In this document: in pieces, positions 3,001 through 63,000 of the stretch | How the letters are laid out: the number at the start of each line of letters is the position of its first letter | How positions within the stretch are numbered: position 1 is the first letter of the stretch | Assembly: GCA_964035545.1 (NCBI GenBank) | Contig: OZ037768.1 | Location: forward strand, 19,962,700-20,026,699 | Direction: 5' to 3' | DNA from: Bugula neritina | Taxonomy: Eukaryota > Bryozoa > Gymnolaemata > Cheilostomatida > Bugulidae | Length of the DNA stretch: 64,000 bases | Program-made: the position numbers and the translations under genes | Notes under the pieces: generated by a model | Databases searched by the model: none | Told to the model about the DNA's origin: nothing | The model's input: only the letters and a program-made list of their open reading frames with translations

Positions 3001-6000
3001 TCACGCCTAATGGTTTTAGGGGCGTGGCTTAAATACTTTTGAACTCATAGTCGACTGCTTATTGGGTAATTAAGTTCGTCTGCAGCATTTTTAAAATAAG
3101 CAGACGAACGGCTTGCAGCTTACACTTCATTAGGTAGCTTTGACTTTGTACGTGTTCGATGTCTCTAAATAACTCTGCAGCCAGTTATATGTAAGTAAAG
3201 TGCATATACTTTGTACATATACTACAGTAATAATTTTATTTTAAATACTTTGACTAAATTTCATTGTAGTTATTACATTTATGTGTCAATAGTTTTAATT
3301 TTAAAAGTAAAATGCAAATAAAATTATCATAAATCTTGTAGTTATACTTTTCACATTATTATTTTAGGCTCATAATTTAAATGTACAGCTTTTTCAGCTA
3401 GTGCTTTAAAAGGGTTTTGAGTGAATTTTCTTCTCCGTTACAATATAATTTATTCAGTTACCTGATTTTCACTCTTGTAATAGAGACATGGTTTTGTGAA
3501 AAAGAGTTAATTATTTTTATTGGTTGTAAATTTGGGGCTAAATTGACTCTAAAGTCTAAAGTCTAAACCATTCAGAAATTACTATCTTCTGCATTTTAGT
3601 TTGTTTTTCCACTTGTTCTTCAGATTACCTAATCTAATTATTTTAGTCGCCACAACATTAACTTGCTAACTTCTAATTTGTATTTCAATTTTAATATGGA
3701 GTATTTTTCCCCAACGGTGTAATCATGATAATGTAATTGAGAACAGCTACTCTACACGAATAGACAAAAAGATCCAATTAGGTTAGCTACAAATTCTTGT
3801 AAGGAAAAAGTTTATGTATGCACATGGGTCTTGTAACATGTTTAGAATTATCTTACGTTGATGGATTGTAATTATTTGAATGACTGAGTGACTGTTTTGA
3901 ACGATCCTGTTCACGCTGCTCAGTTTTATCTTTTATAAGCAAATTACACTGCATGCCAAGTTTATTTAAGAAAAGTTGTTATGAAACTTGGTCTAGAATT
4001 TTCAACTTATCTAATAATCTAAGAACAGTTAGCAAGGAATTTTTTATTCTTTTACATATTTTTATACCAATTTGCTTGTTTTGATAATTTTAATAAAGAT
4101 TCTAGATTTGTTAGTATATTTTTAAACTATTATTGGTTTAATGTTAGTTTTGTACCCTGAGGTTTCCTGACTATTTTGACAAAAGTTGCAATTATAATTT
4201 AATGTTGGTCCTTTGACCCATCATAATTTTGCTTGAGCTATGACAGAGTATTTTTTACAATCTATATCAAAATTAATTTGAAATGAAATGATCAAATTGG
4301 TACTTGATTGAAAAACCACCACTTTGTTCCAATTGGTTGAAATTGGTATGAAAAGTAGCATGTAGTTTAACTGTTTCTTTTGTTGCTTGTAGTGACGCTG
4401 GACTGGGTGTGTGTAGTGTCTGATATAAAGAGTCAACTACCTTTACTAAATATTGACAATATGGTGATATTGGGAGAGTCAGCTCTCGCTTATGTTAAAG
4501 TAAATGAGCTGTTGCGTGTCTCATGTGCTGATGGAAGAAGTCCTGGTATAACCAACAATTTACAACCAACTGTTGAAGGGCTGAGATGCACGTAAGTTAA
4601 ATTTAGTTAGTTTATAGCAAGATAGTTAGTGCAAGTATAATGTTGAACCATACTAATAGAGTGATATCAATACAATACAAGTTGCAAGAAAAATCAAATG
4701 CATTTTAAAAGATCATTTATTTTAACTGTAATACAAGTAAAGATTTAAATTATTTAAAGAAAGCTAAAGATAATTTGCATCATTTCAGGTATGGTGGGCA
4801 ATGGCAAAGAGGTATCCCAAGACTGCCCAACCACTGTCAAGGTAAGATTATTCTTATGCTATTGGCTATGTAGTATAATATTATGTTGTAGTATGTGTTT
4901 ACAAATGGCTCTCGATAAAAGCATTTTTACTTATCAACCGCTACTTATTTCGTTAATATGATGACTAAGTTAAAAAAGTAGTGTTTATGTACGTAACATC
5001 TTGCTTTAATATATTCTGTTTGTAGAAATAGCCTGTGAACCACCATCAAACAGTTCAATGTACGAGTACTCTGGTAATGTCACAATAGATAACTTCATAC
5101 CTCTAAATCAGACTCTACTGCTAACATGTGATAATGGAATATCATATGAATCTCAGTGCAGTAGAAATGGTAACATGATATTTGGACAGTGGATTCCCCC
5201 TCTTACATGTGGTATGTTTTTGTTAAACTTGTAATACTTGTGATATTTTGCAGGTAATTGCTCTAAAATGATATTATTTTATTATAAACTGTTGACAGTT
5301 GTTGAGTGTAGTGTAGAACACCAGAATTTAAATTTAACAGTTTAAAGCAACTATGTGCTGCAGTTCATTTATGAAAACATGAACGTTAGGTAATTTATCA
5401 TCTGTAGAAAATTATCTTGCTTTTCGTGTTTTGATTTGTTCTATTGTATTGTTATAGTCAACCAGCAGTGCGACAGTAAACAGCAACTGTCTGTTTGGGG
5501 TACAGAATATGCAAACAAAAGAGAATACATCTCGCAGCGTTTAACTGTTTCTGTGGGAGAAACTGCTATATTTCAGTGTATGGAAGGCTGCACTGGTCAA
5601 ATTGCTCAATACTCATGTACTATGTAAGTTATATGACTGCACTGATGAAACTAGAATACAACCATTAGCCTACATAATGAACAAAAGAAAAATACATCCT
5701 TATAATATTGTAACTGATATTATATAAACAAACATTGTGAACATGAGCTCATAGGGGTAAATTATGTATGAAATATATATGAAAGCATGCTTAACTTTTA
5801 ACTTCTTTGTAGTGATACTGATGGTATAGCTAAACTTCAGGCTCATGGTGGTAATTCTACCTTATGTGATGGTAGGTGGTTTTATTTATACATCACATAT
5901 TGTTTATTTTTCTCTTTGTTGTTCAGGCAAATAATTTTTCATAAATTTCATTCTGTAATTTTTTTAACAGAAATACGCTGTCAAGCACCTGCTATAAGTA

Positions 6001-9000
6001 CAGAAGGTCACATAACATACAGTCAAACGCTTGACTGGGAGTGTCATCAAGATGGAGGTTCTTGTCAACTAAATGAAAGAGTTGAGGTTTTCTGTTCACA
6101 TGATGATACAACTCCAACTCATCATTTCTGTCTGTTATCAGACAACAACACTGCTGAATGGTTTCCTTCCTTTTCTTGTGGTAAGATAGTAAATAATCTA
6201 TACGATTGAATGAAACTTTGTTGGTGTGTTTGCTTTTTTGCAATATAGCATATGACCAGTGAATATGTCAATTTTTTATATGTAAGTCATGCATGTGGTT
6301 GCCAGCAAAGTACAATTTCTCCATAACTGTGACGAAGAATAAAAATCTGGCTAAAGTCACTTGGCTAAAGCATCTTGACTGTGTTAAATCTAAATTTTAT
6401 ATTTATAGAAATTGTGTTGCTTTTGGTACACAAACTTTGTTAGCCGATTCAGGCTATTGACTTTGATATGCATAATAATTACTGCTGATTTTTAAATGAA
6501 GAGTTTTCATGCTGAGTAACTGAAATGTATATTTTTAGAAAACAAGGCGCTGTCCTGTGGAATTCCTGGTGATATCTTTGGTATGACATGTACAGATTCT
6601 ACTTTGGCAGCTGACACTCCTGACTGGCAGCGTTACCCTGATGGCACAGAACTCCCTTGTAGTTGTCAGTCTGGATTTCATCAAGGTGAGCAAAACTGGG
6701 CCGTATTTGAATATAAAAGTTTTGCATTAAGTAACTTCCGCCGTGGTTTTTGACGAAATAGCTTCTTCATGAATCTGAATTTTTAGCAGTTTCTTTACTT
6801 TCAGTGTCTGAAGAGCCAATCATTGTATGTAATGGAACAACCAGGCAGTGGACACCAACATATGGAATGCCTTGCATTGGTAAATATCTTGAAGACTCCT
6901 GTTTAAGTGTTTTCAGTTCTGCAAACAGCTCTGTTTTACTTGTTTTACTTTGATCGTGTTTTTACCACTCTTTAACCAGTATTATGTTCTACTTGCTTTA
7001 CTTGGTATAAAAAAACTCACGCAAGTTTACAGTCACTATCCCTGTGAGAAACCCCAGATAGAAAGGGTTTTTGTTGAAGCGGGCTACGGACTTACTTGCT
7101 TTACTTGGCATGTGATTCCTGTATTTACAGCTGATACCAGCCCTTCAAACCTAATAGAGGATTCAGAGTCGCAGCTAATCAGTTTAGACAATGGACTTCA
7201 TCTACTTGTGGAATGTAATGAAAATAGCTCCATGTCACCATCTTATCCTTCTAGAAGGGAACTTCTTGAGGTTCAGAATTTGACAGATTCTCCTATCAAC
7301 TGTTACAGTAAGTGTTTAAATTCATTAACTTACAGCTAAAGTAAAACTGGATCTTAATTATTTTCTAAAATTTTATGGATATAAATTCAGAATGGTTTCA
7401 CTTTTAATCCCCATTTTGTGAAATTTTAGCTGGATGCAAAGCAGATTTCATAACATCGAATATCCCATATTCAGAATTGATTCCTCCTCACCATGTTCAT
7501 CCCGTTGGGGCTGAAGCTGTGATAAGCTGTGAAGAAGGCAAAGCAATAGATAATGAATTAGGTGAGTCAATTATTGTAACTCTACGAGTATAGCATTCAA
7601 ATTATTGGCCTTCCTAACTTCTTATGGTGTTCAATACTGATGCAGGCAACATGTTGCACTTTTTTCAGGTTTTGTGGTTGCAAAATGTGAGGTGATGGCT
7701 AACAACACAATTGGATGGTCATTTCCATCTAATATATCTTGCAGAAGTGAGTTTTTAAAATTTTGTTTTGCTTTTGTTTGCTGCCTGTAGTAAGGTGCTT
7801 GCCTAATCTTTTAGAGTAGTAAAATCACCAATACTGCTTACTTGATGCTTGTGCTAGACGATATGCAAACATTGTTGGACTACTGTCAACCAATTCCTTT
7901 ATCAATTATGTTTCAAGAATAGTGTCTGTACTCAACTTCATACTGAGTTGTATAGTTATGCTGTTGATATATCATATATACATTTAAGTAACCCTCAAGC
8001 ATCTTGCATTTACTAAAGGCACTACTGCTCAGGCTCCCTGGTTTGTTGTAGATTTTATATATCATTCTTCATCCACTACGACTGTACGGAATGTCAAGTA
8101 AGTATTACTAATGTAAATAGAGTATTTACAAATAAATAAATTCTTGTGCAGCTGGGAATCATTTGCAGCAAATACATTTCAAAGTTATTTCTTTATTTTA
8201 AAACTTTTTGTCTGAAGAAATCTTGCTATTCAAAGTTTTTGTTTATTTCAGGAGCCTTGGACCACTACACTATACTGGTTTGCTTTTAATATTATTTTAA
8301 ATACAAACTCATTTGCATAAATCTATATGTATTTGTGAGATTCTTTTTTTCTTGCTGCTTCATTGTAAATAGTTATGAGCTAATAATTGAATTACTAACA
8401 TAACGATTGTCATTTTAGCATTTCAAAATTTTTGATCTCTAGAGGGTCTATTATCTAAAATGCGCGTTACAAAATATGCAGATTTTGATGTGTGTAGTAC
8501 ATTTCTTAGACAAGTTAACAAAGATAGCTATCCAAGTAGAAGTCAGTTCAAATGCCGGTCATAAAAACAGATTAACCGACACTGCTCTGAGCAACTCCTG
8601 GGTTTCTGAAGCTACTTCACAACAATGGCTTATGGCAACATGGACTGGGATACATTCTGTAACAGTTATTAGACTCTATTTACCAGGGATACTAGGTAAA
8701 TCAGTTAATTCATGATTACTGGGTTATAAGTACTGTGATTGTATTGCTTTATGCGCATCTATCAGTGCTTATCGAAGTTCCACAGCCTGCACAGGCTTGT
8801 ACTGGTAGTTGCACTTCACTAGCTGTTCTGTGAAGCAGAATCATGTTTTAAGTAAGTAATTATTAAAAACGCGCTCAAATAGTACCAGAATTCCATAGAA
8901 ATAATAGTTCAGATTAATTAGATGATTTTTAAATCAAAACACTGTAAAAATTTTGTCACACACTGGTAGTTTGGCAATCAGCTACTATAGAAATTATGAG

Positions 9001-12000
9001 ATAATGCATATTTATAAACTATTTGCTTAAAATGCTTATCATTGTTTGTTTAAAGGCTGCGCTGCAATTTTTCCAATGTAATATTTGTAGCAAACATTCA
9101 TGTGATGTCCACGATGGTATCCAACACTACAGATCCACCTTCTATAAACAGTAATAGTTGGATAGTAGATGAATTCATAGAGGGCGCATTTACGCAGAAT
9201 ATTACAGACCTCCACTATGATGTAGGAGACATACAGGGATACGCCGTAGCTCTTTTGTCTGGATACAGTGAAGGGTTGGGAGTGAAAGAGCTAGAGGTTT
9301 ATGGCATTGGTGAGATTTAGACTAATTTGGTTATACAGTTGAATATTGTTCATCAACAGTAACTTATAAATGACATAGAAATTGCAGATCAATTTTTTTT
9401 TCAGTTCAAGTTGGAAATTTTCAATTTGATGTATGGTAATGCTTTCTGGTGGTATAATTTGTTAGTATTGTAGGTAACCTCTTAACGAACCAACATTCCG
9501 TCTCATCTAAGAGTGGAAATCCGAACCTTGCAGTAGATGGATTGTTAGTGAGAGTTCCAGAAATTACATCTGTGTTCAGATCAGATCCTGGTCTGAATGA
9601 GTGGTGGTCTGTGTTTCTTGGAGATGTCTACCAGATTGGTGTTATATCTGTCATCAACACTGACAATGGTGAGATTGAAGATCTCATTTTCATAAACTTG
9701 TTTCTGGACACATCAATATCTACTACTTTCTGTGCTGCATTACATGTTAGTCGTGACGCTCTTTAGTTCATGTTATGAATAAAATTTTAAATTAATTGTT
9801 TTGAGTCATCAGTTAACTGAATCGATATTAATTTATACAAAGCTTATTTTTTCAACTGTGCTAGAAGGTGACCTAGCTCCATATAGTAAGATGACAAACA
9901 ATAAAACGAATGAAATCATATTTTCAGAGCTGGACTTGCCGATAAAGATTCTGGTAGCAATAAGCACTACTGAAACACTAACGCCATCACTGAATGGTTC
10001 TTGGAATGAAGTTCATATTCAGGAGAGACCAGTTTTACATACATTGACTGTGAAATATTCTCCTGCAATCAGTGCCTCACACATCGCTCTGTTACATGAA
10101 GGAAATGGAACTTTAATTATAGAAGAGGTCTTTGTTATTGGTTACAGACTAGGTAAATGTTTTTACTATAATCAGTTTTAACAAGCATTGTAGTATCGCG
10201 AGAACTATTACTTCTGTTTAATGTATGCATTTAATGGCATAAAATTTGTAATTTACTTGTATAGATGACTACACTGCATTACCGACTACCACCATTCAGC
10301 CTGGAACACATGGCAATACAGTTTGGTTGACAGTCAACTTGGGGGTTTCCAGACGAGTTTACACTATCATTGTCTTTCCAGACAGCTCAAGTAAGTGGAC
10401 AGTTTCTGCGTTTTATTTTTGTTGTTTTTGCAGCTATTATTGGAGTCAGATGCCAATATTTATTGCCCACAAGATATATGTTGAACGGTTTATTGATGTA
10501 TGTACACCACACCATGCTCTATGTTTGTACTGTTTTTAAAATTCAATTCAAAGAGAAATTAAATAAATATAATCAACAATAAAGAGAGCTGTATGGAACT
10601 TGTGTGTTGTGTTTGTAGATTCTCCTAGCAGTACAGCTGATGTGCATGTACTGACATCTCAAGCTAAATCTATTAAGAACATTGTATTGGTGAATGACCG
10701 AGTCTGGTCGAGAAAATCTTTGGAAAAAGAATTACTTAGAGCTCCATATGGAGTTGTGTCACTCAGTCCTCCTCAGTATATTCAACATATTGCTCTACTT
10801 ACATCTTCTGATAGTAACTTGCGAATATCTGAAGTGATGGTTCTTGGGAGAGGTTAGTGTAGTATTCTGTATATGTCAGCATCAATTTTTAGAAACTGAT
10901 GTTTTGTATATTGTGCTTGTAAACTGAGTAAAGCTTTTGCTTTTGTGATTCTAGGCAAAGCCTCACAATTCTTTGCCTACCCCCCACCCCCCCCCCCCCC
11001 CCCCGTTGTTCTCTTGCATTTTATATGTTGAATTTTCAAGGTAACAGAGGTATATTGTATTGTATGGTCTGTTTCTAGGACAAGGGTGTATGTTTAAAAA
11101 TGGCATGGAGAATTTTGCTTCCTATGCTGAAGATAACTTTGACTTGAACAACAGGCATGTTGGTAGTAGTTTTAATCTGGATTGTAAATCAAAACTCTGG
11201 CAGAAGAAGTGTGAAAACTGTTCCTCAAAAGTATCCTGTGTATACAAGATTGGCAGTGATGGAACCAGCTTTGATATGGTGTGGGATGTGACTGAGCAAC
11301 AGAAACTCTACTGTAGAAGTAGGCGTCTATTTTTAGTCTCAGTCCACTAAAGGTTTTTTGATCAAAAAGTTTAGATATTATTTACATATATATAGTTGTA
11401 CAGACTTTGTTGCGAGACACTTATTTCTACAATGACTCATTTGACGCTGATTCGTCATATTACAGTTGTATTCATATAATTAAACTAACGGAGTTACTAT
11501 ATTGTCAATGAAGAAGATTATAGCACAATATCACTAGTTGTTTAAAGTAATAAAATACTCAAATACATAATAGGGCTGGTAATCTTAGGTTATCACTAGT
11601 CAAATCTATTTAAAGTTATGATTACTTGAAAACAATATTGTCAATGTTGTAGTCTTACTAGTCTTAGAATACTTCTATGTTTTCAGATTCCAGTGTATGT
11701 CTGGTCAATGATATTCAGTTCTCTGCTATTTCTCTTCCTTCTCAATTTTCTGTAAGATCTGAGGCTGAGTATATTTTTCCTGGAGATTTTATTCTTGTCT
11801 ATTGTCCTGGTTCATCCGCAACACCACGTTACACACTGCTTTGCTCGTAAGTTCATTAATAAAGTGTATCCAATTACCTGCTATTATAAGAATTTAATTA
11901 AACTGCTACATTTAATACATATGTTATACAATGCAGGTCTTTATTAACATGGCAACTGAAATCAAATCTCTCAACATCTTGTCCACAAGAAGACATGACT

Positions 12001-15000
12001 GGCAAGAATCTGGCTTCTTTGGGCTCTGCCAGTCAGAGTTCAATATCTATAGGAAATGCTGATGTAGCGATTGATGGTGTAACTAATTTTACTAAAGGTG
12101 GGGCCGTGTACACAGCAACTTTGTGGGCACCAAACCAATGGTGGAAAGTAGATCTTGGTCAGATCATTGGACTATCTAAAGTCACTATCGTCTTCCCTAA
12201 TGATCAAGGTTTGCTAAATCAAATGATTTTCCATAGAAAACGTAACATAACTGAATCCATGCATCTATTGGTTGATACGTCACTGCACTACTTATTCATT
12301 TGACTGTAGGTTTCAGTTTTACATTGTTTTGAAATACTTTAGATTATCTTTTGTTGATTATTATTCAATTTGCATTCTCCATTTAGTTTGAATTGTTTTA
12401 ACAGAGTTCATGCTCTCTATTTATTATGTAATTTTTAGACACTTACATTGTGGGCCAAGATCTTCACATTCTCACCTCAGTAGTGACAGAATATTATTCT
12501 GATATTTCCCTGAATGCTCCCTCCTGGTATTCTTCATATCTGTACGAAGGAACTCCTACTGATCAGATCCTCACTCTGAGTCTAGACCAGGAGGCACCTG
12601 CTAGACACGTTGCACTCTTCTCAGTCCAGAACTCTTCATTAGCTCTGCAAGAGGTTGAGGTGTATGGCAAAAGTATGTACTCAAACATATTGATCTTCAA
12701 AGCTTATGTACTATTTTATAACCTTGTTGTCATTTTGTTATTTAATTGTCTATGTATCTCTGTTGAAATGTGAAAGTAGTTTGTAATAATAGATCCAAAC
12801 CAATCAAAGATTTCTGTCCTTCTTGTAATTTTTCTTCTCTGCTGAAGATTTTTTCTCATAGCCTAGAACCATTTATGCTTTGTCTTGTGATTGCTTTTAG
12901 CCATCATTTTCTTACATGTATGCAAACATTAAAATTCTAAATCATGATTTTTTTTGCGCTACTCAAATATGGATGATATTTTTTATATGTATAATTGCGA
13001 TTATGTTCTGTTGCAACGAAAAATTATCTGTTTAGGTAACTTGGCTCGGTTCGGTGCTGTATCAAGCAGCACCGGTTCTCCTCCCAGTGGCTCTCACAAA
13101 GCCAATGATGAAGTGATTGGTTCACACAGGTACTTTATGTCACAGGATGAAGTTTCTAGGTCATGGTGGATGGTGGATCTTGATCACCTCTCGTGGTTAT
13201 CTTCAGTTTATATTTACACAGCCGGTTAGTTGCTTTTGTGTTTTACATAGTTTAGCCAGCTCTCCATACACTGCTTGCATTTCTCTGCATACTGTGTGTT
13301 ATAGCCAGTCAAATTTTAAAGTGGTTTGTTTTTTTTCAGGTATTCTCGATCAGCAATTTGATGTCTACTCATCAGTGGATGAAGAGAGAAGCTGTTGGGG
13401 AAAAACTCCATTAACTTGTGCATCTATGTTTCTTGTGTTGAATGAAAGTACACTTGGTCTGTTGGAAGAATCTGTGTTGGCTAGAGTAGTAGCTGTAGTG
13501 TCTGAATCTTCTAGACTAATACTTGAAGAAGTACTGATATTTGGTGAAACTCCTTCAGGTATGTGTATTGATTAAATGGTTTAATTTTCTTGGACTGCAA
13601 CCAAATAAATTTTAATGGACTTTTAGCTGTTTTGCATTAGATTTCAAAAGCCTTTAAATATCTAACTGCAAGTGAAGTATAACTGTTCAGCTTTTCCAAC
13701 TTGATCTTCTTAGCATTGTTGACATGTTGTTTTCAGAGAATCTAGCACTAGGGAAACCTACAGCAATGAGATCTACTGCTGGAAATGAAGCTAGACTTGC
13801 TGTAGATGGCATGTGGAGTACATTTTGTCAAAGCGACAGTCTCAGTACCCAATGGTGGATGGTGGATCTAGAGAGGTTGTATCTGATCAGTGAGATTGTT
13901 GTTTTTTGGCACCAAAACCAAACAGGTCTGTTGCAAATGTTTACTTTAGAAAGCATTTCAAAATATCTACATGCACAGTGGTTTTTTGTTCATTAAAACT
14001 AATTTTGTAGGAATATATTCCACTTTCTGATTTCCCAGCACAAACTAAACAGAAACATTTGTCGAATATGGACATGATTTGCAACAACTGCTTTTGTTGA
14101 ATTTGTTTTTTTTTTCTTTCAACAATCAACTATTTGTGAATTTCAGTCACAGATTCTGCTCCACTAATTTATATAACAACATCTTGGGACAATGCAACTG
14201 GAAATATGTCCGACTTTATCTGGAATGATGACTTCACAGAGTCTTTGCACCAGCCAGCAATTAGTTATTTTAGATACGAGAAATGGAGCCTGTCCAGAAG
14301 AGTGAAAACATCTGTTGGCTTTGGTTTTGGAGTTCACATTAGAGAAGTCTTGGTTTTTGGTGGTGGTGAGTTGTTTTCTGCAACATATATGATGTATGTT
14401 ATACTCGTGCATTTTAAATATCTTGCATTTTCCTTGTCTTTGATGTTAATCTGTTTATGTATGGATGAGAAAAGTTTTGTAGCTTGTTCTTTTAATATTT
14501 TGCTGTGCTTTTTCAATAGTACAAGTTTGGATGTTTTTCTTGCAAATATTTCACTGTGACCCTACAATATTTTTTTAGATATCAGCAGTGTATGCCTGAT
14601 AGAGGATATTGATTCTAACCTCCCTGAAGTTCATGTTGATAGTAAGATTATGCTAGAGTCAGTGTCTGACTATATCCGGCCGGGAGAGAATATTTCTCTT
14701 GTCTGTCCTCAAGGTCAAGGTTTCAACACATCGTCTCAAGATCTCTCATTGGTTGAAACTCTTGCTTGCCGGTATGTTATTCAATGGTTAATTGTCAATT
14801 ATTAATTTTATTTAATTTTTGTCATATTTTAGTATTAATTCGCTACAATTTTTACAACATGCCCCACAATTTAGAAGTCTATTTATATTATTAATTTTCT
14901 ATATTAGTATATATTTATCTCCTATAATGATCTAGCTGTAACAACTATATAACCTATTTTCTTATTGTTAATTTTTAGGGAAGGAACGTGGATAAGTCAA

Positions 15001-51000: not shown

Positions 51001-54000
51001 TTAAGTTAATGCAGATTAAAGAAATTTATTTATGTGCTAAATAACAAGCAATTGATCCAAGTTTATTTAAATGTACATATATTTCAATAATATTCAATTA
51101 AAATGCACATATAATATATATTGTATCAAAATAAATAGTGTCTAGCTGGGAAGCGTCCATGTGTGAAGTGTCTAAGTGGGAAATTTAGCCTATTCTTATA
51201 TCTGTCTACTTAAGATGAAACCTTCCTTTTATCAACTAAATATATTTTTCTTTCAACAATGAACTTATTTACAAATGCAGTCAAATCTTCTCCTCCACCA
51301 ATTCGCATAACAACGTCTCGGGACGATAAAGATCATGGAAAAATGTGTGACTTTGCCTGGACTGACGACTTCACAGAATCTTTGGACCATCCAGGCAATA
51401 GTTATTACAGATACGAGAAATGGAGGTTTGCCAGAAGAGTGAAGATATCTGTTCCCTTTGTTCGTGCTTATTTTGGACTTCACATTAGAGAGGTCTTGAT
51501 TTTTGGTAGTGGTAAGTTGTACTTTATACTTTTCAAAAAGTTTAAATGTTTTGCATTTTCTGTATATGAATGAGTAAGAAAAGTTTTGCAGAATAATAAT
51601 GGTATTTTACTGTACTTTTCTTGCGATATAATTTAGGATGTCTTTTTTACTATTTCACGTGTAACACTACAATCGCTTTTCAGATGATATCGGCAGTGTA
51701 TGCATGATGAAAGATATAGATTCTGACCTCCCTGAAGTTCATGTTGGTAGTAAGATTATACTAGAGTCAGTGTCTGACTATATCCGACCTGGAGAGAAAA
51801 TTTCTCTTGTCTGTCCTCAAGGTCAAGGTTTCAACACATCGTCTCAAAATCTCTCATTGGTTGAAACTCTAGTTTGCTCGTGAGTAATTCAATGGTTGAT
51901 TGTCAAATGGATTTGTTGTAAATGCCATTTATTTTCTGCCGTTATATTATATTCTAGTATTTTATGTAGTGGTGTTTAGTTAGGAAAAGTAATTGATTCT
52001 GACTTAGTATTCGATTTATTTTGATATATTTCAATTTTATGCAACTCTTGATCGTTTTGATAAATGCTTCTTTAAATCTTTAGGAGAGGAACCTGGGCAA
52101 GCCATGGAGAATCAATCAGTTGCATGGGTAAACTCACTACTTCTTGCTTCATTGAAAAGTGTTTTATAGTGTTGAGAAGTTTGTTATTATAATTGCTTCC
52201 AAGTTATTTGCATTTAATGTGACTGAGTTAGCAATATGTATCTCCATGCATCATGGTATGATTTGTATCTGTCTATAGATATAGCCTGTGAACCACCATC
52301 AAACAGTTCACTGTACGAGTACTCTGGTAGCGTCACAATAGATAACTTGATACCTCTAAATCAGACTCTACTGCTAACATGTGATAATGGAATATCATAT
52401 GAATCTCAGTGCAGTAAAAATGGTAACATGAGAATTGGACAGTGGATGCCCCCTCTCACTTGTGGTATGTTTTTTAGTCTTCTGCTAGTGAAAAGTGTCT
52501 GAGAACATGATTTTTGTAACTTTGAAACTAGAAACACGTCTGCAATAATTGGTTTTACAGACTACCAAGAATGCAGTTGGTTCAGTCAACCTGATATATG
52601 GGAAAGAGAGTTGGAGAAGTTTAGAATTGATAGAAAGCAAGAAAATATTATTCTCCTTCATAACTCTGTGGTGTTTAATTGTATGGAGGGTTACCATGGT
52701 AACACGGCTGAGTACATCTGCATGATGTAAGTCATTTTACAAGCGGTACTTTATAAATTTATAGATTGTGTCTCTAAGATTTATAATTTTTTCTAGGAAA
52801 GACAAAAATTATAAATATATTCTCCATATGGCTCCCTGCTTCTAACAACTAATGTCAACGTCTTTGTACTAATATACTCTTTCTTGTAAGTTTATTTCAA
52901 TACACTTTTTCATTTTATGGTTACATGTGTGTACTTACAGTGATTCATCTGGTCTAGTCTCATTGGCAGCTGTTCATCAAAGTTCTGACTCTTGTACTGG
53001 TCAGTATCAATTGCATTACATTTAGTTGCAATATATTTATTCCCGAGCTTATTAAAAAAAATATCCCTCTTCTTTAATGCTTTGATTTAGAGATCTTGTT
53101 TGCAATTTTCATTCTATTCTAATATTTACAGTGAATATGTGTCCTGCACCATCTGTTGCTCACTACGCTGGATACACCAAACAGTATACTGCTGACTGTA
53201 TAAATGGTAACTCGTGTCAAGTTAGAGAGACTGTGGAACTGAAGTGTACAGATGAGGAAACAGAACCTCTGAATAAACACATCTGTGAGAGTTCTTCTAA
53301 TCAGACAGACTGGCTCCCTCGGTCTACCTGTGGTAAGTTCTCTCTCTCTCTGGGGTGCAATTTTTCAACGAATCATCATTGGCTATGCCAAACGCGACTA
53401 TTCATTGTAAGATTGCTACAGTTCAATAACACTCACTGATGTAACACCTGATAAGCATGATTGTGCTTAAAACAATGACTTTATTATTTACTGTGATCTC
53501 TATGCATTACGTATAGGATATAGGGAAAAGTACGCAGGGAACCTGAAGTTTATAAAGCATATCATTTTTCTGCCATGTGTGGCAATAGCTATACTGTAAT
53601 AACTTGCATAGGCCTATACTATAATAAAAATACACATGGAGCTTAAAGTTTACAAAATATTTCAGTGTTTTGTCTTCCATTACACTAACCATACGATCAT
53701 TGGAAAGTCACAGGTCCTATTCTTTTAGATACACGTTGTGGTCTACCTCCAAGAATCTATGGTTTAGACTGTACAAATAACATACCTATAGAGTTGAACT
53801 CAGAACATCAGAAGTTTCCCAACAGTATGAGGATAGAATGTTCATGTCTGGCTGGTTTTGAACCAGTTAATATATCTCAACTTATTTACATGACTTGTAA
53901 TGGTGAAATTGGTGAATGGGTTCTTTCCTCCGTCAACCCATGCATCTGTAAGTCTTTTATTTTATCTGCATCTTGTTCTCATCTGCTTAGGTTATTTCAG

Positions 54001-57000
54001 AGTTTTTAGACACATCAATCAAAAAATCCTGAAAACATGGAGTCTCACTCTCTTGCAATTATTCATTCTATCAAGTGCATCAGACTTCATGTTTATTCTA
54101 TTACTTTAGCATAAGTCAATCATTCTGAATACTAAAACTATATAGTGGCCAGTGGCTTTTATTTCAAAATTCCATCTGAATATTATTCTGTTTTTTTATC
54201 CATTTCAACACACAATTATAGTTGAATCATTATAGAAAAGAGTTGAGCTACCAGAATTGAAGTCTGCACTATCTGCCTTTCCCTCGGTTATCTCTTATGG
54301 GTGTTCCTCAGTCGTTCACATGTTTTAATTTATTTTTAATAAATAATAAATTAACACTGTGGAACATTCAAATAATTACCATAATTATATTAATAATGGA
54401 TTTGTGTAGTGATGACTGAAGAAACATGGTCAGCCAACAGTTCTCAACTGCTGTATGCTAAACTAGATGAATATCCAGTGAGAGCTACAGTGTGCAATGC
54501 TGGGTTTTACATGGATGTGTCATACCCTAACAGACACTTTGTGGTTGATGTCACACCAGCTGAGGATATTGAAGAGACAGAAGTCATATGTTTGCGTATG
54601 TTTATTTTTTGTTGTTTCAATGTTAAATTTTATTTTGTGTTTGTAATGTCATGCTGTTCTTAGCATCTTTAGCTAATTTACCAATATGTTGTAGGTGGCT
54701 GTGATGCTAGTTCTCTTTTGGGTGAGAGTAATAACTTCACACTTCAACCTCTCAAGCAGTTTTATGGACCTGGCGAAGATGCTGTTTTTGATTGCAAATC
54801 TACCAACAACACTTTGATGGGTTTATATGGTATGCATTTTAAAATAATCTTCTAATGTTGATTTCTCTAAAAGAAAAGTCAACAATCAAATATAATAGTA
54901 ATTTATGTTTAATCTAGTAAGTTTTTTCTTTCTCATCAGCATATTAAGTTTCTTTCTAAACATACACAAAAACATTTTAGTTGATGAAAGAATATTCAAA
55001 TGTATTGTGACCATTCAACTGAACATCGAAACTAACTTGAATGAGACTACCTTGCAGTGGAATACTCTGCCCCATGATGTTTACTGTGAAGGTGAATGTT
55101 TTTTCTATTTAATTTTTATAGTTATCTTCTGCTTGTCTAAAAAATTTGAGGTTACTTTAATGTTGCTTAGCTTTTAATGGATGAACGTTTCGTCATTTTA
55201 GCACAAGTCCTAAATACAGAGCCGGAGGTCATCACCAGGAAGTAAGTTGACATTATCTTTAATTATCTTTATTAATATAACAGTTTCAACATAAATATTT
55301 AAAATTTACCCGCAATAATTTAAAGTTACGATCTAATAAAGCAGAATAATTTGTAACTTGTAACTTGGGTGTGTTTTATTTATTTGTAGATCATACGGGT
55401 CAATCAAGTTTGCTGGTGAGATCCTGAATTCTCTCCTTACTAATTCAGCTGACACAACTTCTATTGTACTCATTTTAGTAAAGAAAATGTAGATTGTAGA
55501 TATTCTTATTCAAGGCAATATAGTAAAAAATATAGTAAATTTTCAGAAATAGTGGAGTATTCATTGACTTATCAGTGAGTTCCATTATATATTTGCCTTT
55601 ATACCTGTGTTATAGACCAGGTAGAAGTTGCTCTCTTGTCACTGTGGGACATTACTGTGAGCTCTTCAGATGAATCCAGAGGTGTATTAGTCGACCACAG
55701 ATTAGATTATGTCTGGCAATCACAGGCTACTACTGGCCAATGGGCGATGTTGGAATTTCAAAAATTTATCTCTGTTGTCACAATTCGACTCTACCTTCCA
55801 AAGGCAGCTAGTGAGTTTTTACGTCACCAAAGTATGGCAGCTATGCTGTATATGTTAATAGTCTATGTAGCTTCAAGACATGAATCGCATATATCCGTTG
55901 TTTTATGCGTTCATCTTGCAATATTAGGAATACCACAAGTTGAGAAGTTGTCTATCCTATCTACACTCTCTTCCAATGATCAAACACCTGATTTTGATGA
56001 TGGCTTCTGGGTAAAACATTTCTACTCAGAGCAACCAATTGGTGGTGACATGAAAGACTTCAACTTTAATGTTGGAACTGTTAGATGTTACAAGATAGCT
56101 CTGCATTCAAACAGCTCCCAGGGACTTGCCTTAAGAGAGATTCAAACGTACCATTTAGGTATAGATAAACTGGCTGACACTTGCCTGTATCCATAGTCTA
56201 TTTTAAAACCTTTAAAAAGTCTCACTTACTATACTTTTTGACTGTGCATGTCTCATAATCAATTATTTTCTATTTTTAGCTAATCTGCTTCATATCAACT
56301 CTACGGCTGTTAGTAGCACCTCAGTTGGAAACTCTTCAGCGAAAAATGTCATCGATGGAGTAGCTGTTACATATGATCATAATTCCTATTTTAAATCTTT
56401 GTCTGGTAGACACCCTTGGCTAGCTTTGTATCTTGGTGATCGATATTTCTTGATAGACATCGCATTAGTGATGAACAGCAATGGTGAGTATAAAGTATAA
56501 ACACGGTTGGAGTTTGCTTGAAAAGTTACAGACAAACCAAACGCACACCCGCACACATACATCTTGCCAATATTTTGTATTCATGTGTTTTAGATGTAAC
56601 TGGTACAAACACCTCTCTCTTCTACAAGCTGGATATAGATACTTCAGCTATTTACGAATCAGGAAACAGTATGTGGACTGATATTGGTTCCTTAAGTGTA
56701 GACTCACCAAATGTTCTGATAGTCAGTCACCCTGTGGATGTGTTTGCTAGTCACCTGGCTGTGGTTGGACAGAGTCATAGTAGTCTTATTATTAATGAGA
56801 TAATGGTGTTTGGTTACATTCTCAGTAAGTCACACTTATCTCGTTATTTGTTTGGCTGTTGCTTTAGTTGAGCCTATTTTACTATGTGTCAGCTGATCAA
56901 ATTTGTTCAGCTCTTCATCATTTTATTATAATATTATGAATATCTTACAAATTCAATGAGTCAGAGCTGAGTGTTATAACATTGTACTGATTTAATTTTT

Positions 57001-60000
57001 TGTTCATTTACAACTCAACTTATGTTACAGAAAACTTTGCTGGTGTTGGTGAGACTATGCAGAGTTCAGAAGAATTGGTGGGAGTAACTGGAGCTGAGAA
57101 TGCAGTTGACGGTCTGATATTTGATGAAAGTGTTTATTCTCAAACAGAATCAGATGGACATCAGTGGTGGAGAGTAGATCTGTTGGCTTTACGCAGAATT
57201 TATTCCATTGTCATTTACTCTAGTCTGGCAGGTAAGTGTTTCCTTTATTTTAAGCTATTTCCTATTTGGCCAATTGGTTCTGTAGGTTTTGCATTTCTCA
57301 TCGTTGCGGTGATAGTATATATCGAGTAGTTTAATGTTTTGTAGTTTTCTTGTTCAATTATGCCATTCTATTTCAGATTCTCCAGCATCCAATATCCAAG
57401 TATTGGGTAGTCAAGGTGTAACTGCTGCAAACCCACATCTGTACAAGAATACATGGGCTATAGAGTTATATAATGGCATAGCATTTTTATCTCCATATCA
57501 TGCCATTCACTTGGACCAGTCTAAACTACTTCGTCATGTTGCTATACTATCTGGAGATGATGTTGGCTTACTACTGACTGAAGTAGAGCTCTATGGAAAT
57601 GGTGAGTACTCCCGTAGAGTGCGTTCCCTATTCACTTCCAAGTATTTAGGTATAATTAGTTTACTCTTGTAGTCCTTTTAATATATTTAGTACTTCTTGA
57701 TAGGTGGTTATTTTTGCATATTCGTTTTGATATTGCCACCTGTTTGTTATATCCTAATTAGAATAAAAATATTGGCAAATTAAGTGTGAGGAAGTTCAGT
57801 GCCTGATTTATTTTGTATTACTTCATCAGCTCCATCACTATACCTTTCTGTTACTATGATTTATTCTTCAAGGAGAATCAGTTATAGTGAATAGCTATAA
57901 TATCAGTAATAAAATTATTCAGCCTAAGTACTAGATTAAGCATATTTTTTGTTAAAATGTATATAATATACATATTATGTATTATATGTATAATTATATC
58001 ATACTTATGTAAGTACTCTGTAATTATACATTCATTGCTTATAAAATCGTGTCTCTGGATATTTTAAGCTACTGCATCCAGTGTTTGCATGTTAAGTCAT
58101 ACCAAGCGGAAAATAAATCATTGGTTTTTATTATGCAAATTAAATTAATTGTTATCTTTTTTTAGATCAAGTGTGCATCTTTCGAGATGGTGATGAAAGT
58201 TATTCTCGTTTGGCTACTGATGAGACAGACTTCAGACGCAGATATCCTGGAGAGTCCTTTGAACTAAAGTGTCCTCAGTCTATGTCAGTTGTTTGTCCCA
58301 ACTGTTCAGCTACAGTGACATGCTCACCGGATATTGATAGTAGTACTGGTGTATTTGACATGTTCTGGAATGTAACAGAAGAACAGAAACTTTACTGTCA
58401 AGGTACCGTGGCTCATCCTGTTTTGCTGGTTTGATTGTTTTTATTATAGCAAATAGTGTTCTAATATTATAGTGCATGAGCATTTAATTCTCAAAATACT
58501 TTACATAAGCCTGCACTACAATGTCAATGTTTCCTTTTTCAGTTTAAAATTATTCAATTTTAGATAACGCTTGTGTTTTCAAACCTGGTGAAGAAAGCTA
58601 CGCTAATTTAGCTGATGATGCCACAGACTTTAGACACAGATATCCTGGAGAGTCCTTTGAACTAAAGTGTCCTCAGTCTATGTCAGTTGTTTGTCCCAAC
58701 TGTTCAGCTACAGTGACATGCTCTCTGAATATTGATAGTAGTACTGGTGTATTTGACATGTTCTGGAATGTAACAGAGGAGCAGAAACTTTACTGTCAAG
58801 GTATCATGACTCATTATTTTACTAATCATGTTCTGTTGGTTTAATTGTAAATATTATAGCTAACAATGGTTTTCTAATGATACAGTATCGCTTTTTGGAC
58901 TGAAGGATTTACTCAAGTTTTCCATCAATTAATGCGTTGTCTGCTGGTATTATTACTGTTAGGCATGATTTGGTTAACTTGGTTTAAAATTATAATTCCT
59001 CATTGGATGGTGTCAATTATCAGTTTACCTGTAGCATATTCTTTCTTTTTATATTATTATAAAAACCTTCTCACTAATTTGTGAACTGCCATTTGTTGTG
59101 TTTCCAGATATAACTTTGTGTACTCAAAGAGATGCTAATAATGCTTTGCCTGCGGCTCTCAGTCTTGTGAAGCCATCGAAATATTTGATAGCTGGTAGTC
59201 TTCAACCATACCAGTGCAGCTCTCACCGTTCAGGAGTTTCAAGTAGAGGAATTCCACTGGCCTACAGTTATTTTATTTGCAGGTACTTTATTCACTTTTA
59301 AATAACAATTTAATTATTGATAATATGTTACCATTTAGCAAGGCACTATAATCTTCTATTCTAGTTTTATCCAAGTTAAGCAGAAGTTTTAGTATTATGT
59401 TAACTTCAATAATACTATATAATCAGTAACTTATTATTAGGGTGACTTAAATGCTCAAGAGTTTAATTAAATTTGATGGGTAAATTTTAGGGACACTTAA
59501 TATTGTTAAAACTTTGAATTTAATATTCTATTTACTTCAGCAAATTGATCCAAAATGTTTTGCTGCCAAAATAAAACTACATTCACAGCTCACTGTGTGG
59601 AACTCTTGAGAAATTCACCAAATAAAATCAGGGTGTTAGGGATGCGTTTTTCAACTTGCAGCTCTGAAGGAAAGTGGGCTGTTGGTGACCCGGAGAACAC
59701 GATTGCCAGCTGTATTAATCGTACCACATCAGAAATTAACCTGGCTATTAATAAAACTACAGACATTAGTTCCATCTCATCTGGGAATCTTTCATATCTC
59801 GTTGATGGATTATTTGATACTTCTGGAAGTTCTGTCGAGATTCTGTCTACAGACAGTGAAGCTAACCAGTGGTGGAAGATTGACTTATTTGCTATATATG
59901 GTATCCGTGAAGTCATTCTCTATGGCTCTAATGGTAAGGCGTTATGCTTACATATAATTAACTACAGAACGCCTGATAAAATGTTAGTGTAATTCTGTAA

Positions 60001-63000
60001 CACCTTTCATATTCAATTTCTAGACACACTGCACACCATTCAACAACTACACATATTGACATCTGTTGCCACATACCCTGACAGTGTGCCTTCAGTTTAT
60101 AGCGATTCATGGAACTCAATACATGTATATGATGGACCAACCACACATTGGATTGTCAATGTACAGTTTACATATAGAGCACCTGCTAGGCATGTCGCTC
60201 TGTTGTCTCTATATGATGAAGGATTTGGTCTACAAGAAGTAGAGGTTCTTGGGACAGGTCAGTGATAGAGCTTGCATTTATATTTTGAGGACTACATAGC
60301 ATTTTTTTGATACTTTAATGTTTTATGGTTTGTTTGGAAATGAAAGCACTAAAATTAATCAATTGTGTTACACAGTTTACATTCATGCAATGTATGCCTC
60401 TTTTTGTAGAGAATCTTGCATTTGGTACGCCGTTTGAAGTTAGCAGTGTCTCTCCATACGACAGGCGCCATGCAGCTAAAGTTATTGACGGAATAGTTGG
60501 AGCCATTGAATGTTTTAAAACGGATGTTGGAAAGGGCCAGTGGTTTATGGTGGATCTGTTGAGTGAATATCAACTAGAATGGGTCTATGTTTATTCCGTT
60601 GGTAAGTTCTTATTAAACATCTTTCAGTTGATATTCTATTCTATGCCTTTGTCTATTGTGATTTATGGTATGAGTGTTTACTAGCTTCTCTGTATTATGT
60701 ACTATCATTCTCATCTTGCAGAATTGGCAGCAGATTATGCTACCCTTTATGCTGCCAGTGAGATTCGATCTACTCACTGGGGCGTAGATCCAACCGAACA
60801 CCCAGATCACTGGGCTGCTAATTTCACTCTCAATCAACTATCTGCTGGTCTGCTTTCAACTATGTTCAGGGAGAAGTTCTTTGCTCAGAGCCTTGCGCTC
60901 TACAGTCTATTGGACTATGGTCTGGTCATAGACGAGCTTATTGTTTTTGGATCCCTTGAACAAGGTATTTCCTGCTCTTTTATTCATGCACTCATATTCA
61001 ACATGATTGGCAATAGCTGCTGTTCTATGCAGCCAATTAAACATTTTTTTAAAAATGCTTTTAAGCTGATGAGTTTTTGTGTGTATTCAATTTTCATTAT
61101 AGTTCTACTATAATTGTATTTGCCATTGTAATGAAATTGTACTGATTTAGGTTATAAATACAATTTATATTAACATTTATTACAGAGCCACTTTGTGGAG
61201 AAGATCTTCAATATAGTATTTGGGAAGCCGAACGCCTCAATCATAGACTTCTTGGTGGAGAGCCGAGAAAACTACCAATCAACAAATCTGTAACATTTGT
61301 CTGTCAAGATGGGTACATTGGGGACGCTGTGAACTACACCTGTACTTGGTAAGTTCTACATGTCATACTGTATGGATAACTGTACTAGCTGCAGTTGTGG
61401 TGGCACTGCAAGTGTTTTATAATGTGCCCTTGCAATTTCTATTTGCATTTGAATGGCTTGCGGTTGTAACCTTTATTTCACTGTTTGAAATGTGATTGTG
61501 AAACCCCTAATAAGCACTTGCAACTCTGTTAGTCCTATGCACAGCGATAATTACTCGAGATGTTTTGTATGGGCAAGGTTTGCGAGTTAAAATGGTACTA
61601 TACTTTTACTCTCTTCTATTTCTACTTAGTTACATATCATTTTTTCTTCGCAGGGAGGCATATAAAGGGCCTGTATTGAAGCTTCTTTCTGACAGCAGCT
61701 TTGCTTCCTGCCAAGGTTTGATAGTAATACTCAGCTTTTTTATTTCTGCAACTGTCACAACATTTTAGTTGTGTGATTTACTTACAACTGAAAGGTTTAG
61801 TGTGTATTCTTTGTTTTCTCCAATTGATGTTAAAGAATGCAAAGTAGTACAGTTAGATGGTTTATGCAAAAATATAATTTTTTTTCTAGGTTGGTCTTAG
61901 CCTTGACAGTTTTTCTTAAGTCATCAGCTTGTAATACAAAATATCAACTTTAACTAATTTTCAGTTTGTATTTTTATTAACCAAATGTATTGTCAAGGTA
62001 GCTTTTTGTTTACAGAAGTAAGTGTATGTCCTGCACCATCTGTTGCTCACTACGCTGGTTACACCAAACAGTATACTACTGACTGTATAAATGGTAACTC
62101 ATGTCAAGTTGGAGAGACTGTGGAACTCAAGTGTACAGATGAGGAAACAGAAACTCTAAATAAACACATCTGTGAGAGTTCTTCCAATCAGACTGACTGG
62201 TTCCCTCAGCCCACATGTGGTAGGTTTTTGTCAAGAATTGTTATAGAGCTTTCAGTTTATCATTTTATTGAATAAATTTACAGATACTATGTAATTTTAT
62301 CACTTCTTACAGCGCCTATTATTTTGTATTTTTCCTTGAGTTAGCCTGCTATACTTATCCCTATTTATGTTCTTTGCCAAATTTTGCTACATCTTTTTCT
62401 TGTAATTTAACATGTAATCCAAGTGAATAATAATTATGGTTTCTATTTGCATTGTTTGCAAAACATTCTATCTAATAATTCTGGCTACATTTAGGTGCAT
62501 ACTGCAATGCCCCTCCTCACGTTCACTCTATTGACTGCTCAAGCTCTTTAGGAGAGTTTTCTCCAGGCAGATATGCGCACGGAACAGTGATACAATGCAC
62601 CTGTGCACCTGGATTTGTGAAAGGTGAGCATTCTATGGGTGATGCTTCTATAATAATTTGTCTATTCAAAGATTCTGAGTTTTATACCCAATTACAGTTC
62701 CTTCAGTCTCTTAGCAACTTTTATTTAAAAGATACTGGTGATTTGGCAGTTTTTAAATGATATCACACAGCATAAGCCTGAAAATCAACGCGCTCTACGT
62801 TCTAGGGCAGAAAAAGTTCATTTTGAGGATATCAATGTGGTATATATACTGGTTAGAATCATAGGTCGTATGCTTTTCAACAACTCAAGTTCAGTTGTAA
62901 AATTTAAATCATACCTTGTGATTTTGAGTTGCAGCTGCTATGGTAATTTTTAAATTAATCTGTTTAGGTGGAAATGCTGATGATCCTACTATGACATGTG

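Follow-up and report, generated by a model that had tools for sequence, protein, structure and literature searches.

A giant predicted gene with two levels of tandem repeats in Bugula neritina and the tethered modular glycoprotein that it may encode

Introduction

Giant membrane mucins such as MUC16 are very large proteins with Thr/Ser-rich repeats in one long exon and C-terminal tethering. The modular surface proteins of colonial animals include Hydractinia Alr and Botryllus fuhc and fester, the last of which carries sushi domains. Drosophila furrowed and CG9095 are mosaic F-type lectins that combine an F-type domain, a C-type lectin domain, CCPs and a transmembrane segment, with CG9095 also deviating from the basic triad, and oyster sperm bindin has tandem F-type repeats that undergo recombination and change in number (PMC5712786).

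A locus of the bryozoan Bugula neritina, apparently on chromosome 4, is described here from a 64-kb stretch of DNA (the window, in which position 1 is the first letter and negative positions lie upstream). Like furrowed, CG9095 and sea urchin SpCRL, the predicted product is a putative surface protein in which F-type-fold modules are joined to CCP-like modules, but it is far larger (~113 modules), is built of two-level repeats, possesses a mucin stalk and a GPI-like end, and retains fucose-site residues in 0 of 42 modules; no C-type lectin domain was found in the B half-unit that was scanned, unlike in those proteins. Tandem F-type repeats are shared with oyster bindin, an acrosomal protein with 1-5 repeats and positive selection at its binding sites, whereas the Bugula protein has 42 such modules and purifying selection between units. 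The protein resembles MUC16 in its very large size, its Thr/Ser-rich repeats in one long exon and its predicted tether near the C-terminus, but ~11,280 residues of folded-type modules come before the mucin, and the end is GPI-like whereas MUC16 is transmembrane with a tail. As a modular surface protein of a colonial animal it is comparable to Alr, fuhc and fester, but its module set is different, and it lacks positive selection between units in the one haplotype analysed, a second haplotype being deposited as GCA_964035465.1. A search of titles and abstract openings in a limited library found no paper on the gene, which is not proof that it is undescribed.

Results

Extent of the predicted gene

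The window is predicted to be the central portion of a larger gene of 201 exons, modelled with a purpose-written small gene finder and homology correction, that extends over ~88,000 bases from -15976 to 72170 and encodes 13,517 residues. The chain comprises 13,517 codons with a stop codon at the terminus only and 200 GT-AG introns, an openness that is partly built in, since the finder is biased towards open exons and homology was used to fix some of the boundaries. The initial prediction of 208 exons was curated to 201 by discarding seven exons with no counterpart seen in other units (five of 24-42 nt, one of 73 nt and one of 77 nt), and nine exon boundaries were moved, eight to the homologous position and one, in the last exon, to the in-frame stop. 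Both gene ends were placed by inference, the finder locating them only with help: with open borders it linked the chain via tiny exons into an aldo-keto-reductase-like gene upstream and extended downstream to weak exons, one of which has an in-frame stop, and the signal-peptide exon was spotted by eye and became the finder's start only after the stretch was cut at -17200. The features of the gene model and homology table are as follows.

-15976, upstream of the window: signal-peptide-like exon (gene model)
224..2711, + strand: end of an upstream, older B-like half-unit that starts at -10095; its final exons form two F-type-like pairs, of which the first begins before the window does (gene model, homology table)
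4393..22622, + strand: unit 1, half-unit A 4393-14365 and half-unit B 14579-22622; 51 exons, 2,886 aa (gene model, homology table)
22623..22745, + strand: intron joining units 1 and 2, 123 nt, phase 1 (gene model)
22746..40841, + strand: unit 2, half-unit A 22746-32398 and half-unit B 32550-40841; 51 exons, 2,878 aa (gene model, homology table)
40842..40964, + strand: intron joining units 2 and 3, 123 nt, phase 1 (gene model)
40965..60964 (unit span to 61185), + strand: unit 3, half-unit A 40965-51511 and half-unit B 51684-60964; 52 exons, 2,962 aa (gene model, homology table)
58166..58402, + strand: additional copy of the block 12 exon, unit 3 only (gene model, homology table)
61186..64000, continuing to 64378, + strand: truncated terminal half-unit with cysteine-rich blocks only (gene model)
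64763-71110, outside the window, after the terminal half-unit: mucin exon (gene model)
After the mucin exon to 72170, outside the window: C-terminal exons, the last at 72016-72170 (gene model)

The window contains 163 complete exons coding for 9,252 residues, in good agreement with the ~9,260 residues of an earlier note on this DNA, and 154 exons (8,726 aa) lie within 4393-60964. The phase-1 exon chain of that note does not hold throughout, as 59 of the 201 exons are 1-2 or 2-1 and 140 are 1-1. Searching the genome with 732 aa taken from the first part of one B half-unit gave 46 matches, all 46 inside this gene, and an Rfam scan of the window returned 0 matches. A sponge or other non-bilaterian source was considered and rejected: COX1 contains internal TGA codons and, in a by-eye comparison with conserved COX1, AGR is consistent with Ser and ATA with Met. 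A tRNA scan of two mitochondrial loci gave no hits.

Organisation and divergence of the units

Self-alignment reveals repeats at offsets of ~18.2, 19 and 37 kb throughout the window. Each of the three units (18.2-20.2 kb in length) consists of two older half-units, A and B, with a block order common to both, and contains 29 blocks (18 cysteine-rich and 11 F-type-like) by count from the homology table, rising to 30 in the third unit, rather than the ~27 first estimated. Self-alignment and the gene model together uphold the earlier claim of three units at 4393-60964 that agree in block order, exon phases and frame, and the reading frame does cross both unit junctions, through the two 123-nt introns. 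The description of the units as near-identical is overstated: some blocks reach ~97% identity between units, and several upstream exons lie at a dS of just 0.02-0.06 from unit 2, but 9/51 (U1-U2), 19/51 (U1-U3) and 11/51 (U2-U3) exon pairs are strongly diverged, defined as a dN of 0.15 or more or a dS of 0.5 or more. Exon lengths are mostly equal, as had been stated, but differ in 22 of 153 unit-to-unit pairs (excluding the extra third-unit exon at 58166), always by a multiple of 3, a pattern beyond chance. Among 150 intron pairs, 21 are equal in length and the others differ with remainders of 0, 1 and 2 in 41, 41 and 47 cases. Aligned intron distance is 0.12-0.16, with 3,717-5,862 gap columns per comparison, and is a lower bound, because identity comes out too high when poorly matching introns are aligned with gaps.

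The protein is under purifying selection between units. Where paired exons are equal in length and differ by no more than 12% (103 pairs), substitutions at the three codon positions number 277, 202 and 458. Recent blocks have a dN/dS of 0.32-0.38, and pN/pS exceeds 1 in 2 of 51 exon classes. Positive selection was not found between the units of this one haplotype, and no hypervariable module class was seen in the between-unit comparison, where purifying selection is even across classes.

An exception to the divergence of the half-units is the cysteine-rich exon of block 2, copies of which lie at the following positions.

5026..5211, + strand: block 2 exon, A half-unit of unit 1 (homology table, flank comparison)
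15163-15348, 23325-23510, 33141-33326, 42235-42420 and 52279-52464, + strand: the other five copies (homology table)

Block 2 exons are 91-96% identical between A and B, whereas the adjoining 40-nt flanks are only 0.30-0.55 identical (nine A-B pairs, ungapped), and the introns and most other exons of the two half-units have drifted far apart. Such identity between unrelated flanking introns points to homogenisation of block 2 by exon-sized gene conversion.

Modules and termini of the predicted protein

The predicted protein possesses 42 modules that the earlier note called discoidin-like, a label that profile search narrows to the F-type-lectin branch. A profile of 10 modules searched against the PDB retrieved FBP32 (5.3e-18), Sm-hPAF (1.1e-12) and fucolectin-related proteins, and PF22633 and PF00754 matched 8/10 and 6/10 modules, respectively, which identifies the modules as F-type-lectin folds at the level of profile similarity. 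None of the 42 has both the His before and the RxD after the WW core of the fucose motif HX24RXDX4(R/K). A loose fucose pattern matches the entire protein just once, at residue 9318 (module 50436/51281), and the His of that match lies outside the canonical site. Canonical fucose binding is thus unsupported, and any binding by these modules is probably by another route. A loose pattern for the cation motif (two small hydrophobic residues followed by DG) matches 22/42 first exons.

The CCP identity that the note had assigned to the ~71 cysteine-rich modules is weakly supported. Of 21 distinct sequences scanned alone, 2 gave a Pfam Sushi match, in sets of 2/12 (best 6.3e-5) and 0/10 with one sequence common to both, and a scan of a whole B half-unit reported no Sushi match at E up to 1. 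A PDB profile search placed C4BP and CD55 at ~7e-4 with an antibody fusion ranking first, hhalign against a clear sushi domain gave 1.7%, and AlphaFold2 models of two cysteine-rich exons were too poor for use (mean pLDDT 54.3 and 51.4).

The mucin exon encodes 2,116 Thr/Ser-rich residues (31.5% Thr) in 49-residue repeats, and all 41 genome matches to the repeat fall at this locus. The signal peptide and C-terminal tail score 2.19 and 3.07 on the hydropathy scale and the next stretch 1.71, above which no other hydrophobic stretch is present in the predicted protein. As the sequence stops at the C-terminal hydrophobic stretch with nothing after it, the C-terminus reads as a GPI-anchor signal, and the two ends as placed in the model are best read as those of a GPI-anchored protein.

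Discussion

A single continuous giant extracellular protein, as proposed in the earlier note, is well supported by the genome: the chain is open across the units, there is no convincing internal start, and the 123-nt junction introns leave no room for one gene to end and another to begin, suggesting one gene and one transcript spanning all units. A separate gene for each unit, making three or more, would account for the likeness of the units in size and content but is very improbable given these phase-1 junctions and a signal-peptide scan of the introns (47,242 nt) that yielded a single candidate, away from the junctions and matched by one on 88,101 nt of reverse strand. Duplication of one unit during assembly could explain the blocks of ~97% identity and the low dS of several upstream exons, but can hardly be credited and was rejected on the intron divergence, the indels and the diverged blocks; dN/dS and the multiple-of-3 exon differences argue the same way, the window lacks any N, and the assembly is chromosome-scale from PacBio and Hi-C (PMC11480708). 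Symmetric modules or units might be skipped through alternative splicing.

The reading slightly favoured, with real doubt, is a giant multivalent adhesion or recognition glycoprotein from one gene, tethered on a mucin stalk. The single secreted, membrane-tethered chain of ~13,500 residues would run from signal peptide through the F-type-lectin-fold and cysteine-rich CCP-like modules to mucin stalk and hydrophobic tail, forming a very long filament that the stalk keeps at a distance from the cell surface and that displays related binding modules in many copies, by which it would adhere to or recognise cells, matrix or microbes. The gene grew by duplicating first an old half-unit and later the 18-kb A+B unit so formed, and is partly homogenised, probably by gene conversion with exon-sized tracts included; the tandem structure makes unequal crossing-over that changes unit number plausible. 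A putative adhesion, recognition or immune function fits this anatomy. A mainly structural or mucus/glycocalyx protein, its modules acting as spacers or cross-linkers without a specific partner in the colony surface coat or feeding mucus, is a less likely but serious reading that suits the large mucin domain, the loss of fucose-site residues from all F-type modules and the even purifying selection without a hypervariable class, but a module order that is both conserved and diversified, with every class under strong purifying selection, would exceed the needs of a spacer. A receptor-ligand role in colony allorecognition or immunity, its diversity arising from unit number and exon-sized conversion, is improbable: purifying selection between units, with so few exon classes above a pN/pS of 1, tells against it, and in its favour are the colonial host, this architecture at a single locus, the tandem units with mosaic divergence and exon-sized exchange, and the recombination and splicing among F-type repeats described for oyster bindin (PMC5712786).

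Two repeat levels, a half-unit of ~8-11 kb within an 18-kb unit, lie inside one predicted coding gene, and routine annotation may well have split the gene into pieces. Its length of ~13,500 residues would put the product in the company of the very large animal proteins. The block 2 exon offers a direct handle on the recombination that shapes modular proteins. In the available portion of the B. neritina draft-genome paper, allorecognition comes up only via weak similarities to Alr1 (PMC7576161), and a surface-tethered, repeat-rich, single-locus gene is therefore a concrete allorecognition candidate in a colonial animal. There is a slim chance that it encodes a bryozoan self/non-self recognition molecule, varied by unit number and by exon-sized conversion among two-level repeats; if so, its parts and its mechanism would both set the recognition system apart from Alr, fuhc and MHC.

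Gene model of the three-unit locus

A small purpose-written gene finder, followed by homology correction of some exons, was applied to the window together with 80 kb of upstream and 120 kb of downstream sequence. The resulting model is a plus-strand chain of 201 exons extending from window position -15976 (negative positions lie upstream of the window) to 72170. Its predicted coding sequence of 40,554 nt carries one stop, at the end, and encodes 13,517 residues (1.48 MDa), and all 200 introns are GT-AG and 86-1,681 nt long (median 181.5). The 163 complete exons inside the window encode 9,252 residues, close to the approximately 9,260 predicted in the earlier note, and the span of the three tandem units, 4393-60964, holds 154 exons and 8,726 residues.

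At the DNA level the unit junctions show no gene boundary, as judged from the junction introns, which are 123 nt each, and from a scan for signal-peptide-like first exons. The scan recovered the -15976 exon as a control and, across 47,242 nt of introns, yielded one low-complexity candidate, 57957-58008, inside unit 3. The reverse strand gave one candidate in 88,101 nt, taken as the chance level.

The ends of the predicted gene are less secure than its middle. With open borders, the finder linked the chain to an upstream gene resembling, by eye, an aldo-keto reductase, and on the downstream side continued into weak exons, one of which carries an in-frame stop. A signal-peptide-like exon at -15976 (MQLELLLAFLVTVVLF), of fitting phase, was spotted by eye in raw translations and was chosen as the start by the finder after truncation of the sequence at -17200. 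Further upstream, -66999 to -62000 consists of 5,000 consecutive N, either an assembly gap or a stretch that was withheld. At the other end, a truncated half-unit (61186-64378) precedes a mucin exon, a single exon of 6,348 nt (64763-71110) encoding 2,116 residues, of which 31.5% are Thr and 13.6% Ser, with a repeat period of 49 residues (autocorrelation 0.87). When the genome was searched with this Thr/Ser-rich repeat, all 41 matches lay at this place. We ended the chain where the exon starting at 72016 first reaches an in-frame stop, which immediately follows a hydrophobic stretch. The hydropathy of this stretch (3.07) is the highest in the protein, followed by the signal peptide (2.19), with all others at or below 1.71. 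The hydrophobic tail reads as a putative GPI-anchor signal; a tail-less membrane anchor would be less likely.

Repeat hierarchy

Long self-alignment matches occur in the window at offsets of approximately 18.2, 19 and 37 kb. When all exons were compared with the unit 2 exons, each unit resolved into two half-units, A and B, of 8.2-10.7 kb and common block order: a cysteine-rich run, three F-type pairs (two-exon modules of F-type-lectin fold), two cysteine-rich blocks and three further F-type pairs (two in B). Protein identity between A and B is mostly 20-45%. The same comparison identified two additional segments upstream of unit 1:

-15534 to -10615, + strand, last part of another half-unit
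-10095 to 2711, + strand, extra B-like half-unit

The gene contains approximately 71 cysteine-rich blocks, by our count from the exon comparison table, and 42 F-type pairs, listed and counted. An ACGCAC microsatellite of 8.3 copies lies in a unit 2 intron (37546-37595), and simple repeats of this kind probably account for unit 2 BLAST matches far upstream of the gene.

Module identity

A profile of ten F-type pairs matched FBP32 (5.3e-18), Sm-hPAF (1.1e-12), fucolectin-related proteins (7.2e-12) and chain 1k12, annotated 'lectin' (9.3e-8), which we take to be the eel lectin, in the PDB. Among the same ten pairs, Pfam PF22633 was found in eight and PF00754 in six. In none of the 42 F-type modules is a His ahead of the WW core combined with an RxD behind it, the residues sought being those of the fucose-site motif in an excerpt of PMC5712786. 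Across the entire protein, a loose full-motif pattern occurs once; this match falls in module 50436/51281, and its His lies elsewhere than in the canonical place.

The cysteine-rich blocks are CCP-like in their cysteine and tryptophan pattern. Pfam Sushi was assigned to 2/12 blocks in one set and 0/10 in another (one sequence being common to both), and no Sushi match was reported for an entire B half-unit up to an E-value of 1. A cysteine-rich profile matched C4BP and CD55 mixed with antibodies in the PDB, an antibody being the top match. The hhalign figure against an unambiguous sushi domain was 1.7%, and confidence was low in each of two structure models.

Divergence between units

Exon pairs between units differ in length in 22 of 153 cases, in all 22 by a multiple of three; intron pairs are of equal length in 21 of 150, the remaining differences being 0, 1 and 2 modulo 3 in 41, 41 and 47. 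Substitutions at codon positions 1, 2 and 3 number 277, 202 and 458 (in 103 length-matched exon pairs differing by no more than 12%). Recent exon pairs, defined by dN below 0.15 and dS below 0.5, make up 42/51, 32/51 and 40/51 of comparisons between units 1-2, 1-3 and 2-3, respectively. In the same order, their dN is 0.037, 0.044 and 0.034, values that the cut-off itself pulls down somewhat, and their dS is 0.116, 0.115 and 0.105. Distances over aligned introns are at least 0.158, 0.151 and 0.123, and the alignments contain thousands of gap columns. Under a similar filter, pN/pS is 0.37 in F-type exons and 0.34 in cysteine-rich exons, and exceeds 1 in 2 of 51 exon classes. The open-frame argument is partly circular, because the finder prefers open exons and some boundaries were placed by homology. 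The exon and intron length pattern, codon-position bias, dN/dS and intron divergence make an assembly echo of one unit unlikely, and the units read as true duplications under purifying selection.

Strongly diverged exon pairs number 9/51, 19/51 and 11/51 between units 1-2, 1-3 and 2-3. The unit-to-unit exon comparison places strongly diverged stretches, among others, at:

4393-5871, except 5026-5211, + strand
54695-55810, + strand
59108-59282, + strand
60410-60964, + strand

The exempted exon, 5026-5211, and its five further copies, one per half-unit (block 2), are 91-96% identical in all nine pairings of an A with a B copy; the neighbouring 40-nt intron flanks reach only 0.30-0.55. The A and B copies are intermixed, since dS is 0.08-0.19 between A and B and 0.22 between the A copies of units 2 and 3, although these values are noisy for an exon of just 186 nt. 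Exons at -10095, -7702 and 62016 are likewise islands of similarity amid older surroundings. Exon-sized gene conversion is the simplest reading of block 2 and the islands, with unusual constraint on synonymous sites a possible alternative.

Related loci in the genome

A query of 732 aa, taken from the beginning of a B half-unit, had 46 matches in the genome (55 candidates scored), all of them inside the giant gene. F-type-like modules also occur in other genome clusters, with at least 66 and at least 37 matches. On assembly sequence C5, 464001-484000 appears to carry smaller predicted receptors in a tandem array. Their two F-type pairs have the exon-pair layout of the giant gene and are joined by a region that looks FN3-like by eye, a single sushi domain (Pfam 5.9e-10), one hydrophobic segment and a tyrosine-bearing tail; the array is a possible immune or recognition receptor cluster. 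On C3, approximately 470 kb (7647006-8118473) contain many F-type-like first exons in arrays, mostly on the minus strand, and may hold further very long genes; at 7750001-7760000 are three F-type pairs, one of which retains, by eye, the fucose-site His and RxD. Clear sushi domains cluster densely at C5 0.47-0.95 Mb, C1 2.81-3.46 Mb, C7 7.13-8.00 Mb and C2 28.07-28.11 Mb, on the basis of at least 150 matches of 480 candidates.

COX1-like genes were observed on C17, C196 and C65: one bacterial-looking, without TGA, one with TGA codons and interrupted by a reverse-transcriptase-like reading frame, and one more with TGA codons. These are probably symbiont or contaminant contigs. A second, near-identical host COX1 copy on chromosome 6 (C6:11174072-11175412), with two residue differences by eye, reflects either recent insertion of mitochondrial DNA into the nuclear genome or a misassembly.

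Possible function

The predicted anatomy suggests a long multivalent filament tethered at the surface. A module is about 4 nm long and mucin extends about 0.2 nm per residue; from these sizes, the filament could, as an estimate only, measure several hundred nanometres. A coat or mucus role is the main rival to a function in adhesion or recognition. Allorecognition would be attractive since the host is a colonial animal, but the selection between units is purifying and does not favour it. The leading reading, rated slightly better than even since both gene ends depend more on our placing than on the finder, is that this locus would encode a tethered giant surface protein for adhesion or recognition.
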